NCBI GenBank assembly: GCA_039683095.1
Contig: JBDKSB010000012.1
Location: 590,293-654,292 of the forward strand
Length of the DNA: 64,000 nt
Direction: 5' to 3'
From: Acidobacteriota bacterium
GTDB lineage: Bacteria > Acidobacteriota > Aminicenantia > Aminicenantales > Saccharicenantaceae
The notes below the pieces were generated by a model. The model saw nothing but the letters and a program-made list of their open reading frames with translations. It was not told the origin of the DNA and ran no database searches. Shown in pieces: positions 37,641-49,395 of this stretch (position 1 is the stretch's first letter; every line of letters begins with the position of its first letter). The translations under genes were made by a program, and so were the position numbers.

Positions 37641-40085
37641 ATGAAACGAGCGTGCGCGGCGGCCCTCCTCGCGGCGCTCGTCCTCGTCTCCGCCTGTTCC
37701 TCCGGCAAGGCTCCGGCCGACGCGGCGGGGCTGAACCTCCTGGTCATCACCCTGGATACGACCCGCGCCGACGCGGTCGGCCTGTACGGGAACCGGCACG
37801 GAGTCACGCCCCGGATCGACGAGCTGGGCCGGGCCGGGATCGTCTTCGAGAACTGCTATACCCCGGTGCCCCTGACCCTGCCGGCCCATTGCTCGCTTTT
37901 CACCGGCCGCTATCCCGTCGGCCACCAGGTCAGGAACAACGGCACCTATGCGCTCCCGGCCTCGGAAAAGACCCTGGCCGCCGTCTTCAAGGAGCGGGGT
38001 TACGACACGGCCGCCTTCGTCGCCTCGTTCACCGTCAGCGGCAAGTTCGGCCTGGCCCGGGGCTTCGACACCTACGATGAAGATCTCGAGACCGGCCAGC
38101 CGATCGTCAACTATGCGGCCGAGATCCCGGCCGACCGGGTTTACGCCAAGTTCGCCCGCTGGCTCGACGGCCGGTCCGGGCGCAGGTTCTTCGGCTGGGT
38201 CCATTTCTACGACGCCCATTCGCCCTATGTCCCCCATCCGGACGGCCCGGCCGGCGACGGCTCCGCCTGGAGCCTCTACGAAGGGGAGGTCCGCTACGTC
38301 GACGCCCACGTCGGCAAGATCGTCCAGGCCCTGAAGGACAAGGGGCTCTACGAGAACACGGTTCTCGTCATCGTCGGCGACCACGGCGAGGCGTTCGGCG
38401 AGCACAAGGAGCACGGCCACGGCATCTTCTGTTACGAGGAGAGCCTGCGCGTGCCCCTGATCCTCCACAATCCGCGGCTCTTCCGAACGCCCAAAGCCGT
38501 GGCCGGGCGCGTCAGCCTGGTCGACGTCATGCCCGGGCTGCTCGAGCTCTTCCGGGCGCCGGCCCCGGCCGCCATCCAGGGCCGGAGCTTCTGGCCGCTG
38601 GTCGGGGGCCGGGAGAGCGAACGGCGCGAGATCTACTTCGAGAGCATGTACGGGAGCGAGGAGTTCCACTGGGCGCCCCTGACGGGGCTCCTGGACGGCC
38701 CCCTTAAATACATCTCCCTGCCCGAGCCCGAGCTCTACGACGTCGATTCCGACCGGCCCGAGAAGGAAAACCTGATCGGCGGCCGCCGCGACGCGGCCGT
38801 GGCCATCGACCGGAAGCTGGCGGCCTTCGTCCAGAGCATGGCCGCGGCCGCCGGCCCCAGCCGGCGCCAGCTCAGCGCGGCCGACGTCAAGGCCCTGACC
38901 TCGCTCGGCTACGTCTCGAGCTTCGGTCCCAAGGCCGGGGCCGCGACCGACCCGAAGAGCGGCATAGACCTCTACGCCGACGTCATGGGCCTCAAGGACC
39001 TCGTCGCCAAGGGGGATTACCCGGCGGCCGACAAGCGGCTGGCGGACCTCGAGGCCCGCCATCCGGGCGTGGAGCTCGCGGACCTCGACGAGGCCCGCTA
39101 CCGGCTGCTCAAGGCCAGGGGCCGGACCGACGAGGCCCTGGCCGTCCTGCGCCGGGCCATCGACCGGTTCCCGGAGCGGGAGTCCTTCAAGGTCTTCCTG
39201 GGCGTGGACCTGATCGAGAGCGGACGGATCGCCGAGGCCGGCGACTACGGCCGGCGTTTCGCGGCCGAGAACCCCGACGTCGCCGCGGCCCACGTTCTGC
39301 TCGGCGACGCCCAGGACCTGCTCGGCCAGCCCGACGCGGCCCTGTCGAGCTACGAGCGGGCGGCCGCCCTCGAACCCCAGAATCCGGCCCTGCGCTCCAA
39401 GATCGCCGCGATCTGGATCAAGAAGGGCGATCTGGCCAAGGCCCAGGGGATCCTCGAAGGGCTCGAATCCCGGCCGGACGTCGTGATCTCGACGGACTTC
39501 CAGGAGGCCATGTCGGGCCTCGGCCACTCGCTCCTGGCCGCGGGACGGACGGACGAGGGGCTCGGCGTCTTCCGCAAGGCGACCGCCCTGAGCCCGCGGA
39601 GCCCGGCGGTCTGGCTCAACCTCGGCGGCGCTTATTTCGCCCTCGGGGATTATCCGGCTGCCCTGGAGAACTTCGAGAAGTCCGTGGGCCTCGACCCGGG
39701 CTTCGCCCTCGGCTGGAGCAACATCGGCCAGGTCCATCTGATGAACCTGGTGGCCGGGAACGCCGCGGGTTCGGCCGACACGGCCCTGGCCGATTTCGAC
39801 AAGGCCATCGCCCTCGCGCCCGAACTGGCCGTGGCCTGGAACGGCCGCGCCTCCGTCCGCCTGAGCCAGGGCCGGGCGGCTAACGCCGTCCGCGATTACG
39901 AGCGGGCCATCAAGCTCGATCCCGGCCTGCTCGACGCCTATATCAACATCAGCATCGCTTTGAGGGAACAGGGGCGAAATGCCGAGGCCCGGCGCTACCT
40001 GGAGAGCTGCAAGGAACGGCTCGGGCCGCGGCTGGCCGCCTCCGACCGTGACGAGATCGACCGGCTCATCGCCGAGCTTCGGTGA
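37641..40085 (+). CDS. Sulfatase-superfamily lipoprotein with TPR domain
   Basis: 814 residues. Lipobox VSAC (Cys19). The alkaline-phosphatase/sulfatase fold spans about 30-400: metal ligands in VITLDTTRAD (Asp40) and VIVGDHGEAFGEHKEHGHG. At the nucleophile site the sequence is TLPAHCSLFTGRYP; the formylglycine Cys or Ser of CxPSR is Thr79 here, so it is not a classic arylsulfatase and may be a phosphatase, phosphodiesterase or phosphotransferase. Residues 440-814 are TPR repeats. Cell-surface or periplasmic location is expected. Confidence 0.85.
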   Translation: MKRACAAALLAALVLVSACSSGKAPADAAGLNLLVITLDTTRADAVGLYGNRHGVTPRIDELGRAGIVFENCYTPVPLTLPAHCSLFTGRYPVGHQVRNNGTYALPASEKTLAAVFKERGYDTAAFVASFTVSGKFGLARGFDTYDEDLETGQPIVNYAAEIPADRVYAKFARWLDGRSGRRFFGWVHFYDAHSPYVPHPDGPAGDGSAWSLYEGEVRYVDAHVGKIVQALKDKGLYENTVLVIVGDHGEAFGEHKEHGHGIFCYEESLRVPLILHNPRLFRTPKAVAGRVSLVDVMPGLLELFRAPAPAAIQGRSFWPLVGGRESERREIYFESMYGSEEFHWAPLTGLLDGPLKYISLPEPELYDVDSDRPEKENLIGGRRDAAVAIDRKLAAFVQSMAAAAGPSRRQLSAADVKALTSLGYVSSFGPKAGAATDPKSGIDLYADVMGLKDLVAKGDYPAADKRLADLEARHPGVELADLDEARYRLLKARGRTDEALAVLRRAIDRFPERESFKVFLGVDLIESGRIAEAGDYGRRFAAENPDVAAAHVLLGDAQDLLGQPDAALSSYERAAALEPQNPALRSKIAAIWIKKGDLAKAQGILEGLESRPDVVISTDFQEAMSGLGHSLLAAGRTDEGLGVFRKATALSPRSPAVWLNLGGAYFALGDYPAALENFEKSVGLDPGFALGWSNIGQVHLMNLVAGNAAGSADTALADFDKAIALAPELAVAWNGRASVRLSQGRAANAVRDYERAIKLDPGLLDAYINISIALREQGRNAEARRYLESCKERLGPRLAASDRDEIDRLIAELR

Positions 40086-44968: not shown

Positions 44969-45610
44969 ATGGAACGGCCGGTCGCCCAGCTGAAGATCGA
45001 AGACGCCCTCCGCCGCGTCGAGCGCCACCGGACCATGCTGGCCGAGCTCATGGCCGTTCAATCCCAGACGCTCCGCGAGCTCCGGGAGCTCGTCGCTAAG
45101 ACCGGCGCGACGCTGCCGGAGGATACGGCGCTCCCGGAAAGCGAAGCCCAGCTCCGCCAGGCCTCGCTCCTGCTCGCCCGGTCCGCGGCCCCGGGCCGGG
45201 ACGGGCCGGCAGAGGCCCGCAAGGTCCTGATCATCGACGACGACCCGACGACCCGGAACCTGATCGCCCATTTCCTGCAGAAGGAGGATTTCGTCGTCAT
45301 CAAGGCCGCCGACGGCGGCGACGGCCTGGCCCGGGCCAGGTCCGGCCGGCCCGACCTGCTGGTCGTCGACGCCGCCGCGCCCGGCCTGACCGGCTTCGAG
45401 CTCCTGGCCCGGCTGAAGCAGGATCCCGAGACCCGCCGCCTTCCGGTCCTGATCCTCTCGTCGCTCGACGACGAGGAGGCCATCGTCCGGAGCCTCGACG
45501 CAGGGGCCGATTACATCATCAAGCCCTTCTCGCCCCGGATCCTGGTAGCCAAGATCAAGATGATCCTGAAGGAGGCCGGCGACCATGCTGTCGACCGCCG
45601 TTCTCTATAG
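44969..45610 (+). CDS. Response regulator with N-terminal coiled coil and lone receiver domain
   Basis: 213 residues from ATG 44969. Residues 5-75 are a charged helix (IEDALRRVERHRTMLAELMAVQ); 85-205 form a receiver domain with acidic pocket IIDDD (90-92), phospho-acceptor Asp134 (LLVVDAAAPGLTG), Ser164 and Lys185 (YIIKPFSP). There is no DNA-binding or GGDEF output domain, so it probably acts by protein contact. A GTG at 44903 could extend the N-terminus by 22 residues; neither start has a strong ribosome site. It overlaps the HEAT gene by 26 bases, so it likely controls this operon's machine. Confidence 0.85.
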   Translation: MERPVAQLKIEDALRRVERHRTMLAELMAVQSQTLRELRELVAKTGATLPEDTALPESEAQLRQASLLLARSAAPGRDGPAEARKVLIIDDDPTTRNLIAHFLQKEDFVVIKAADGGDGLARARSGRPDLLVVDAAAPGLTGFELLARLKQDPETRRLPVLILSSLDDEEAIVRSLDAGADYIIKPFSPRILVAKIKMILKEAGDHAVDRRSL

Positions 45611-46643
45611 CTTCGCCTTCCTCCTCGCCGTTTCGGGGTCGCTCTTCTTCTTCATCCTCGTCCGGCGCCTTTTCGTCCAGCGCCGCGAACGGAAGGACGG
45701 GGCGGCCTACGAGGCCATGGAGAAGGACCTGCTCGAGGTCCTGACCTCCGCCGCCGGTCACGGGGCCGCGGCCCGGGCCTTCGCCCGGGAATACCGGGCC
45801 CGGCCGCGGATCCTCAAGCGGCTGCTCGTGGCTTACCGCGAGGCCCTCAGCGGCCGGGCGCTCGAGCCGCTCCGGACGATCTTCGAGCGGACCATCCGCG
45901 ACCGCTGCCTGCGCGAGCTCCGATCGCCCCGGCTGGCGACGCGTCTCCAGAACGTCCGGCTCTTCGTCGACTTCTCGACGCCGGAGGAGGCCGTCCATCT
46001 GGTCAAGCTCCTGCACGACAAGCCCGTCGTCCGCCTGGCCGCGCTCAACGCCCTGACCGGCATCGCCTCGCCGGACACCCTGGCCATCATCTTCGACCTG
46101 TTCGAGAAGGACCCCCGGCCGAACTTCTACGCTTATTCGAACATCTTCAACAACCTCGGCCAGAGGATCGAGCCGTACCTCCGGGCCTCCCTGCGGAAGC
46201 CGCTGCCGGCCGGGAAGCTGGCCCTGCTCGTCGAGATGGCCGGGAGGCTGGTCTTCCGCGGCCTCTACCGGGACGTCGTCCCCTTCGCCGGGCACGCCGA
46301 CAAGGAGCTCAGGATCCGGACGGCCCGGACCCTGGGGCGCCTGCTCGTCCCGGCCTCGGCCCCGACGCTCTGCGCGCTGGCGGCCGATCCGGCCTGGGAG
46401 GTCCAGGCCCAGGCCTTCCGCAGCCTGGGCAACCTCCAGGACTGGAAGACCCTGCCCATGGTCGCCAGGGGCCTCTATTCGCCGAGCTGGCACGTCCGCT
46501 TCAACGCCGGCTACGCCCTGGCGGCCTTCGGCCTCGTCGGCGTCCTCGAGCTCCAGAACATCTCTCGCCAACGGAAGGACCGCTTCGCCGCCGACATGGC
46601 CGCCATGGTCCTCGACACCGTCATCCTGGCGGGAGGCGCCTGA
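45585..46643 (+). CDS. Membrane-anchored HEAT-repeat protein
   Basis: 352 residues. One N-terminal membrane helix (about 5-28) with a following basic QRRERK, then helical repeats: RLATRLQNVRLFVDF, DKPVVRLAALNALTGIASPDTL, DKELRIRTARTLGRLLVPASAPTLCALAADPAWEVQAQAFRSLGNLQ and SPSWHVRFNAGYALAAFG. HEAT scaffolds bind partners; the position between a receiver and a glycosyltransferase suggests it relays the signal to the synthase at the inner membrane. The stop overlaps the GT2 start (TGATG). Confidence 0.8.
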   Translation: MLSTAVLYSFAFLLAVSGSLFFFILVRRLFVQRRERKDGAAYEAMEKDLLEVLTSAAGHGAAARAFAREYRARPRILKRLLVAYREALSGRALEPLRTIFERTIRDRCLRELRSPRLATRLQNVRLFVDFSTPEEAVHLVKLLHDKPVVRLAALNALTGIASPDTLAIIFDLFEKDPRPNFYAYSNIFNNLGQRIEPYLRASLRKPLPAGKLALLVEMAGRLVFRGLYRDVVPFAGHADKELRIRTARTLGRLLVPASAPTLCALAADPAWEVQAQAFRSLGNLQDWKTLPMVARGLYSPSWHVRFNAGYALAAFGLVGVLELQNISRQRKDRFAADMAAMVLDTVILAGGA

Positions 46644-48067
46644 TGACCGGGCTGCTGCGGCTGTTCGACGCCGGGGCAGAGCGCCTCATCCTGGCCTATT
46701 TCCTGCTCATCAACACCTTCTATTTCCTGTTCAACCTGCTCTCGCTCGCCGGCATCCTCCGCTACCGCCGCATGATCACGTTCGTCCGCTTCGGCGAGAT
46801 CTTCCGCATGCCGATCGTCAAGCCCGTCTCGGTCATCGTTCCCGCCTTCAACGAAGGCCCCGGCATCGTCGACAGCGTCCGCTCGCTCCTGTCCCTCCGC
46901 TATCCCGTCTTCGAGGTCATCGTCGTCAACGACGGGTCGACCGACGAGACCCTGGCCCGGCTGACCGAGGCCTTCGACCTGCGGCCGTCGCGGACCGTCT
47001 TCCGCAGGACCCTCCGGACTCTCCCCGTCCGGGAGATCTACAGGTCCGCGGTCCAACCCAGGCTGGTCGTCGTCGACAAGGTCAACGGCAAGAAGGCCGA
47101 CGCCATGAACGCCGGGCTGAACATCTCGCGCTATCCCCTGTTCTGCGCCGTGGACGGCGACTCGGTCCTGGAAAAGGACGCCCTGCTCAAGGTCGTCCGG
47201 CCCTTCCTCGAAGACCCGGAGCGGACGATCGGCGCCGGCGGCATCATCCGGCTGAGCAACGGCTGCGACGTCCGCGAGGGCCAGGTCGTCCGCGTCGGCA
47301 TCCCCCGCAACTGGATCGCCCGCTTCCAGATCCTGGAATACCTCCGGGCCTTCCTCGGCGGCCGGCTGGGCATGAGCATGATGCGGAGCACGCTGATCGT
47401 CTCCGGCGCCTTCGGCATCTTCCGCAAGGACATCGCCATGGCCTGCGGCGGCTATCGCGCGGCCTCCATCACCGAGGACATGGACCTGGTCATCCGCATG
47501 CAGAAGCACATGCACGACCAGAAGAAGCCCTACCGCCTGCCCTTCATCCCCGACCCCATCTGCTGGACGGAGGCGCCGGACAAGCTGCGGGTCCTGGCCC
47601 GGCAGAGGAGCCGCTGGCACCGGGGCCTCATCCAGACCCTGGTCCATCATCGGGGCATGATCTTCAACCCGCGCTACGGCGTGGCCGGGATGTTCGCCAT
47701 GCCCTTCTACGCGATCTTCGAGATGGCCGGGCCGTTCATCGAGGTCCTCGGCTACGCCGTGTTCCTCGGCCACGTCTTTCTCGGCCAGGTCAACTATCCT
47801 TTTGCCATCATGTTCTTCTTCGTGGCCGTCTTCTACGGGACGTTCGTCTCCCTCGTCGCCATCCTCCTCGAGGAGCTTTCCTCGTACCGCTATCCCAGGC
47901 CCTTCGCCATCCTCATCCTGGCCGCGTCGGGGATCCTCGAGAACCTTTTTTACCGGCAGTATCTGTCCGTCGTCAGGGCCTGGAGCGTCATCGACTATAT
48001 CCAGGGCAAGAACGAGTGGGGCGCGATGGAGAAGAAAGGATTCGCCAAGGCAGGGCAGACGCCATGA
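46643..48067 (+). CDS. Processive family-2 glycosyltransferase
   Basis: 474 residues. An N-terminal membrane region (15-45) precedes the GT2 domain: SVIVPAFNEGP, EVIVVNDGSTDE, NGKKADAMNAGL, CAVDGDSVL (DxD), SITEDMDLV (TED) and RQRSRWHRGL (QxxRW). Four or five C-terminal membrane helices follow (about 345-450). This is the architecture of PgaC/hyaluronan/cellulose-type synthases that polymerise and extrude a polysaccharide. There is no PilZ domain, so it is not an obvious direct c-di-GMP sensor. The sugar cannot be predicted. Confidence 0.9.
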   Translation: MTGLLRLFDAGAERLILAYFLLINTFYFLFNLLSLAGILRYRRMITFVRFGEIFRMPIVKPVSVIVPAFNEGPGIVDSVRSLLSLRYPVFEVIVVNDGSTDETLARLTEAFDLRPSRTVFRRTLRTLPVREIYRSAVQPRLVVVDKVNGKKADAMNAGLNISRYPLFCAVDGDSVLEKDALLKVVRPFLEDPERTIGAGGIIRLSNGCDVREGQVVRVGIPRNWIARFQILEYLRAFLGGRLGMSMMRSTLIVSGAFGIFRKDIAMACGGYRAASITEDMDLVIRMQKHMHDQKKPYRLPFIPDPICWTEAPDKLRVLARQRSRWHRGLIQTLVHHRGMIFNPRYGVAGMFAMPFYAIFEMAGPFIEVLGYAVFLGHVFLGQVNYPFAIMFFFVAVFYGTFVSLVAILLEELSSYRYPRPFAILILAASGILENLFYRQYLSVVRAWSVIDYIQGKNEWGAMEKKGFAKAGQTP

Positions 48068-49395
48068 AAAAATCGAAACCTTCCCGCTTCCCGGCGGCCG
48101 TCGTCGGCGCCGTCCTGCTCCTCGCGGCCGTCCCGGCGGGCCTGGCCCAGGGCCGCGACGAGGTCCGCGGCGCGCTCGTCTCTGGGGCCTACGGCAAGGC
48201 CATCGATCTCGCCCTCGACGCCCTTCGCGCCGATCCCTCCGACGCCGAGGTACGTTTCCTTCTCGCCCGGGCCTATGCCTACGCGGGCCGAAGGGACGAG
48301 GCGGAGGCCTCGCTCGACCGGCTCCTGGCCGAGCACCCGGCCGACGCGGACCTGCTCGTCTTCAAGGCCCGGCTCCTCTCCTGGCGCCGGGACCTCGACG
48401 GGGCCGAACGGACGTTCCGGAGGGCCCTGGAGCTGCAGCCGCGCTCGGCCGACGCCCTGGCCGGGCTGGCCGACCTGGCCGCTTGGCGGGGGGACCGCGA
48501 CGGGGCGCTCGTCTACGCGCGCCGGGCGCTCGAACTCGACGCCGACCACGCTCAGGCCCTGTTCCGCACCGGCTCGGTCCTCCTCTGGCAGGGCGATTAC
48601 GGCCGGGCCCGGGGCTACCTCGCCCGGGCGGCCGAGCTCGAGCCCCGGAACGGGGACTTTGCCCGGGCCCTGGCCGCCGCCGCCCCGGTCTTCGCCCGCC
48701 GGGCGGAGGTCTGGCTCGACGGCCGGAACGAGCACTGGAGCGACGGGCGCGGCGACTATACGGACCTCGGCGTCGCCGGCCTTTTCAGCGTCTTCCGCGA
48801 CCGGGCCCGCCTCGTGGTCAAGGCCGGACGCCTCTGGCGGGCGGGCCGGCACGACGACCGGATCGGCCTCGAGGCCTATCCCCAGCTTTGGAAAGGCGCC
48901 TACGGCTATTGCGATCTGAGCTTGGCCCCGAAGGCGGCGATCACGGCCTCGTCCTCGGTCCATCTCGAGATCTACCAGTCCTTCCTGAAGAGGTTCGAAG
49001 CCTCGCTCGGCGCCCGGCGGATGAGCTTCGGCGGCGGCCACGATGGAGTGACCGTTCTGGTCTCCTCGGCGGCGATCTACGCGGGGCCCTGGTATCCGAA
49101 CGTGCGGGTCAGCCGGGCCGGCCTGCCAGGCGGAAGCGAGATCACGTGGACGGCCGGCCTCCGCCGCTACCTCGCCGGCGCCAGCTATCTCTGGGCAGGC
49201 GCGGGCCGCGGCGCCCGGTCGCTCGAGACCGGCCCGGCCGAGGAGATCCTCCTCGCGCCGGCCTGGTTCGCCGAGGCGGGATTCGATCTGTATGTCCTCC
49301 GGGACATCAAGCTCCGGGGCTACCTCTCCTTCCGCAAGGAGGCCGGAGGGCCGTCGAGCACGGCCGCGTCGCTCGTCGTGGGCTACCGCTTCTGA
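48064..49395 (+). CDS. YaiO-type outer-membrane beta-barrel with TPR domain
   Basis: 443 residues. Signal peptide (to LAQ, about 29), six TPR-like units (30-205, AYGKAIDLALDALRADPSDAEVRFLLARAYAYAGR), then a YaiO-like barrel from about 210 (VWLDGRNEHWSDGRGDYTDLGVAG) to the terminal SLVVGYRF. TPR plus barrel mirrors PgaA/BcsC exporters, although the barrel is smaller. It overlaps the GT2 gene by ATGA and completes the synthesis-export set. Confidence 0.85.
   Translation: MKKSKPSRFPAAVVGAVLLLAAVPAGLAQGRDEVRGALVSGAYGKAIDLALDALRADPSDAEVRFLLARAYAYAGRRDEAEASLDRLLAEHPADADLLVFKARLLSWRRDLDGAERTFRRALELQPRSADALAGLADLAAWRGDRDGALVYARRALELDADHAQALFRTGSVLLWQGDYGRARGYLARAAELEPRNGDFARALAAAAPVFARRAEVWLDGRNEHWSDGRGDYTDLGVAGLFSVFRDRARLVVKAGRLWRAGRHDDRIGLEAYPQLWKGAYGYCDLSLAPKAAITASSSVHLEIYQSFLKRFEASLGARRMSFGGGHDGVTVLVSSAAIYAGPWYPNVRVSRAGLPGGSEITWTAGLRRYLAGASYLWAGAGRGARSLETGPAEEILLAPAWFAEAGFDLYVLRDIKLRGYLSFRKEAGGPSSTAASLVVGYRF

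Follow-up and report, generated by a model that had tools for sequence, protein, structure and literature searches.

What might be made by a gene cluster that sets a signalling receiver, a membrane-bound repeat protein, a glycosyltransferase and an outer-membrane barrel end to end, and how might its activity be controlled? The cluster lies at positions 44969–49395 on the + strand of the window, that is, the whole 64,000-nucleotide stretch analysed here (GCA_039683095.1, contig JBDKSB010000012.1, 590,293–654,292 of the forward strand). The host is an uncultured Aminicenantes bacterium; we take the Aminicenantes to fall within Acidobacteriota, following GTDB. The first gene (44969–45610, +, with its ATG at 44969) encodes a 213-residue receiver protein (Response_reg, 84 bits in Pfam), and the second (45585–46643, +) a membrane-anchored HEAT-repeat protein of 352 residues with one N-terminal transmembrane segment (HEAT_2, 95.3 bits). 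They are followed by a 474-residue processive-type GT2 synthase (46643–48067, +; Glyco_tranf_2_3, 69.3 bits) and a 443-residue protein combining TPR repeats with a YaiO-type outer-membrane β-barrel (48064–49395, +; OMP_YaiO_dom, 75.4 bits). The receiver and HEAT genes overlap by 26 nt. The start of the GT2 gene lies within the HEAT stop (TGATG, 1 nt overlap), and that of the YaiO gene within the GT2 stop (ATGA, 4 nt overlap). These overlaps suggest translational coupling. The sulfatase-TPR gene upstream and the DUF5916 gene downstream were both considered as further members of the operon and rejected, as neither is kept with it outside the genus.

The GT2 has every feature expected of a processive polysaccharide synthase (D, DxD, TED and QxxRW motifs plus C-terminal transmembrane helices): DGSTD at 97, DGD at 171–173, TED at 277–279 (ED 278) and QRSRW at 321–325, with an N-terminal transmembrane helix and C-terminal segments at 378–409. 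The catalytic residues are invariant in 14 of the 14 rows of alignment A1. The family profile matches BcsA structures over the TED-QxxRW region. The substrate is hinted at by one haloarchaeal locus, where the operon continues with a sugar nucleotidyltransferase gene and then glmS, as might be expected if an amino sugar were polymerised.

The HEAT protein begins with its transmembrane segment (about residues 6–24), which runs into a long helix and then an α-solenoid. Its AlphaFold2 model is a confident solenoid (mean pLDDT 96.5, pTM 0.88), and comparison with the PDB returned generic HEAT/armadillo repeat matches only. All 66 relatives have an N-terminal hydrophobic segment. Because the residues after this segment are the more positive side in 60 of 66, we predict that the solenoid lies in the cytoplasm.

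The YaiO protein comprises a signal helix, a TPR solenoid to about residue 206 and approximately 14 strands from 214 to 442 (model pLDDT 91, pTM 0.73). It passes the family cut-offs (75.4 against 32 bits for TIGR04390; 51.9 against 23.9 bits for PF19413) and is the only YaiO-domain match in the genome. In Foldseek, E. coli BcsC was the one top-ranking match that combined TPR repeats with a barrel. The top VIA-align rows were TPR proteins and FadL/OmpG/CymA-type barrels, which we take to be 14-stranded; these rows are not specific to export, and we set them aside as evidence for it. The PgaA and BcsC barrels have 16 strands; a smaller pore is possible in the modelled YaiO protein.

The receiver protein consists of an N-terminal extension of about 85 residues followed by the REC domain, and a Pfam scan found no output domain. 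All residues of a phospho-accepting receiver are present: the acidic D91, the phospho-acceptor D134, S164/S165 and K185. Among about 66 aligned REC domains neighbouring related loci, D91 is found in 62, D134 in 62 (replaced by E in 4) and K185 in 65. The initial annotation had described four overlapping genes, for a response regulator lacking a DNA-binding output, a HEAT protein in the membrane, a GT2 of processive type and a TPR-barrel protein, and that description is confirmed. Its further statement, that the parts follow the logic of Pga/Bcs-type synthesis and export, is supported.

We then ask whether the four genes belong together. The GT2 is present in 18 of 60 relatives at E ≤ 1e-30, and nearly all relatives' loci with an orthologous GT2 and enough length have the order REC, HEAT, GT2, YaiO; three of the loci (L021, L022 and L024) are more divergent, at about 42% identity. 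Around the locus in genomes outside the genus, matches are limited to these four genes of the window and a single weak ligase match (L265). As Aminicenantes relatives with different other neighbours share this gene order, the operon is not a local chance arrangement.

Scanning GTDB with the GT2 alignment gave at least 80 GT2 loci from many phyla, picked by similarity. Among the matches listed, 79 loci are informative, and in 78 of them the gene adjoining the GT2 encodes a HEAT protein. The exception is a Nitrospira locus (L089); one locus cut by a contig end (L076) is not counted among the 79. Since these loci had been selected by similarity, phyla were also sampled separately, and there HEAT stands beside the GT2 in 63 of 63 loci with usable sequence. 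In the window's phylum the HEAT neighbour is kept in graded matches down to E of about 2e-54, and it adjoins none of the five next-best GT2s (L161–L165), which served as controls. In a FastTree tree the HEAT-linked GT2s group together with one control (L164) inside, at a weak support of 0.29. We define the HEAT-linked group by a HEAT gene directly beside the GT2 on the same strand, and the window locus belongs to it. The gap between the two genes has a median of 2 nt (247 loci with both genes on the same strand, some repeating the same genome), and two Bacillota genomes encode HEAT and GT2 as a single chain. These fusions are the best evidence for physical coupling of HEAT and GT2. The short gap, the fusions and the genome's sole YaiO match at this site make the four-gene set more than chance.

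The set is widespread, with locus counts that include close relatives. Of 297 genomes sampled from the window's phylum, 65 carry it at E under 1e-50; the phylum samples gave 65 of 247 for Bacteroidota, 23 of 249 for Bacillota and 13 of 299 for Pseudomonadota. Haloarchaeal plasmids also carry it, and a scan of Viral_contigs with alignment A1 found no relatives. Among the loci read, Firmicutes, Actinobacteria and haloarchaea keep REC-HEAT-GT2 without YaiO. YaiO is found in diderm lineages only, in several gene positions, which fits an outer-membrane exporter; in many Proteobacteria it sits between REC and HEAT. The initial annotation had proposed a survey across phyla and had made its reading depend on the genes being conserved together in relatives. 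The survey finds them conserved together. Its four-gene unit stands for the Aminicenantes, where the order is mostly kept, but the conserved core is REC-HEAT-GT2, with YaiO confined to the diderm versions.

From these data we consider it likely, at a probability of roughly two in three, that the operon encodes a synthase-dependent exopolysaccharide secretion machine under two-component control. In such a machine, a histidine kinase would phosphorylate Asp134 of the receiver, which would then dock on the HEAT solenoid, on the cytoplasmic side of the inner membrane and next to the GT2. Docking would switch or assemble the GT2, whose motifs are present and whose activity we infer from homology and gene linkage, along with secretion, the identity of the polymer and contact between the parts. 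The enzyme would polymerise a nucleotide sugar, perhaps an N-acetylhexosamine, and the chain would pass through its own membrane channel. In diderms, to judge from its fold and gene linkage, the YaiO protein would guide the chain across the periplasm by its TPR region and export it through the barrel.

This reading is favoured by the complete synthase motifs, the BcsA-structure matches, BcsC among the Foldseek rows and the absence of YaiO from the monoderm and haloarchaeal loci read. It is also favoured by the four-gene order in relatives, the HEAT adjacency and HEAT-GT2 fusions, the haloarchaeal operon that continues to glmS, the REC linkage, the conserved phospho-acceptor and Lys, and kinases in the flanks. 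Of 64 long loci, 38 have a histidine kinase in their flanks; in Haloarcula it is directly downstream of the GT2, and in one Bacteroidota locus a hybrid histidine kinase with Hpt is directly upstream of a stand-alone REC. Against the preferred reading we count that domain scans of the window operon found no cognate kinase, deacetylase, hydrolase or PilZ protein (nor is a histidine kinase adjacent to it among the genes examined), that YaiO separates REC from HEAT in many Proteobacteria, and that the barrel looks 14-stranded against 16 in PgaA/BcsC. We also count against it that about 14% of loci have no neighbouring REC and that a search across the loci found no REC-HEAT fusion.

These last two points bear on a different reading of the same machine, which we regard as unlikely though not negligible. 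Here HEAT would be a structural partner for the stability or location of the GT2, and the receiver would act elsewhere, through another kinase, a diguanylate cyclase or a phosphorelay, being merely co-transcribed. HEAT adjacency is indeed almost universal, whereas 64 of 74 loci have a REC ORF adjoining the block (for ORFs at a distance the figure is 12 of 153). In addition, a GGDEF-like motif occurs in 14 of 65 neighbouring receivers, nearly all from Bacilli, where the receiver slot is an Hpt-GGDEF-REC protein that could work via c-di-GMP. However, the REC linkage holds from Aminicenantes to haloarchaea, and about 27 of the 65 neighbouring receivers are stand-alone, leaving no room for another output domain. 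The suggestion of the initial annotation that HEAT and a lone receiver replace c-di-GMP control is right only in part: the receiver is sometimes accompanied, as Bacilli carry Hpt-GGDEF-REC and kinases flank many of the loci, so c-di-GMP is not simply replaced. In one Bacillota genome the receiver slot upstream of a HEAT-GT2 fusion encodes an ODP metallo-β-lactamase-fold, GGDEF and REC protein (L247:9003-11024).

Could the operon instead be of the PNAG (Pga/Ica) or cellulose (Bcs) type, its regulators having diverged? We consider this very improbable. PgaABCD/Ica supplies the nearest named GT2 family and a TPR-barrel exporter, and PgaC_IcaA is the GT2's best NCBIfam match. However, the score is 122.3 bits against a cut-off of 422 for the PgaC/IcaA equivalog TIGR03937, and scans of the operon's four genes and of neighbouring genes found no PgaB-type deacetylase or PgaD. 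E. coli PgaC reaches 97 bits with the family profile, less than any HEAT-linked GT2 that was scored. BcsA has the same synthase motifs and BcsC is among the top structural matches of the YaiO model, but the window set lacks PilZ and BcsB and scores 46.2 bits against 699 for BcsA (TIGR03030). E. coli NfrB-NfrA, an N4 glycan receptor system, is also encoded by overlapping genes, for a processive GT2 bearing DxD/TED/QxxRW and an outer-membrane exporter of the TPR-plus-barrel type; a C-terminal MshEN domain of NfrB binds c-di-GMP (PMC8669469). Unlike Nfr, the window GT2 has no MshEN match and is preceded by the HEAT protein and receiver; the NfrA model PRK09782 gives 23 bits against 1223, and NfrB scores only 13.8 bits with the HEAT-linked family profile. 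On profile scores and missing domains we reject membership in Pga, Bcs or Nfr. In E. coli yaiO-yaiP, a YaiO barrel accompanies the GT2 YaiP, which scores 49 bits against the family profile. A putative deacetylase is encoded close by, but no HEAT or receiver is annotated. Listeria PssA-E, an exopolysaccharide system established genetically, likewise joins a PgaC-like GT2 to a signalling protein, but has a BcsB-type partner and a GGDEF-type c-di-GMP receptor, with no mention of HEAT (PMC4125290). In the open-access papers searched, we found none pairing HEAT, GT2 and YaiO or receiver in this way, although the set may have a name elsewhere.

The weakest alternative, that the GT2 loads a lipid carrier with a sugar, or else glycosylates proteins or lipids, while YaiO has another outer-membrane role, draws on the family profile also matching dolichol-phosphate and undecaprenyl-phosphate sugar transferases of the GT2 superfamily, but only at the N-terminal motif, and we discount it almost entirely given the complete DxD, TED and QxxRW motifs, the C-terminal transmembrane helices and the profile's reach across the TED-QxxRW region of BcsA.

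For the secretion machine under two-component control, we tentatively extend the proposal, with somewhat less than even confidence, to a separate and ancient class of polysaccharide synthase in bacteria and haloarchaea. REC-HEAT-GT2 would be its core, a phospho-receiver would gate the enzyme via HEAT instead of c-di-GMP acting on the synthase, and YaiO, sulfatase-type and hydrolase-like modules would be lineage add-ons. For most of the known synthase-dependent exopolysaccharide machines of Gram-negative bacteria, the switch is c-di-GMP. If the proposal is true, the HEAT scaffold and phosphorylatable receiver would give biofilm polysaccharides a second route of control, one open to direct test, and culturable carriers (Stutzerimonas, Mesorhizobium and Haloarcula) make the set accessible.

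Several loci carry further domains or neighbours. In several Bacteroidota genomes the GT2 is fused to a sulfatase-family domain (L240:5953-9390 and L245:5959-9771), and four other loci (L241–L244) have long GT2 ORFs of 1134–1162 residues. In Emticicia an LTA-synthase-like gene adjoins YaiO; this gene and the sulfatase fusions could serve polymer decoration. The window's own sulfatase-TPR gene lies 5 kb upstream of the operon (37641–40085) and is not kept near it in the relatives checked; similar proteins lie inside or adjoin the operon in some Bacteroidota (L043, L254).

Two protein clusters recur beside the set. Cluster C1 (L039:7359-10592 and 24 other loci), a protein of 364–1103 residues next to HEAT-GT2 in Firmicutes and some other lineages, matched neither Pfam nor NCBIfam families among the copies scanned; visual inspection suggests a glycosidase-type barrel that ends in a CBM9-like region. 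Cluster C2 (L048:7834-8739, L100:1167-2744 and 8 other loci) recurs near the operon, and the copies scanned gave no match to Pfam. The L048 copy matches a PDB entry named putative GH97 at E 2.6e-12, so this protein may be a glycoside hydrolase. Finally, on a Planococcus plasmid (L144:1-13344), HEAT-GT2 is preceded by genes for polyphosphate polymerase, DUF4956 and CotH proteins and followed by the defence gene qatC.
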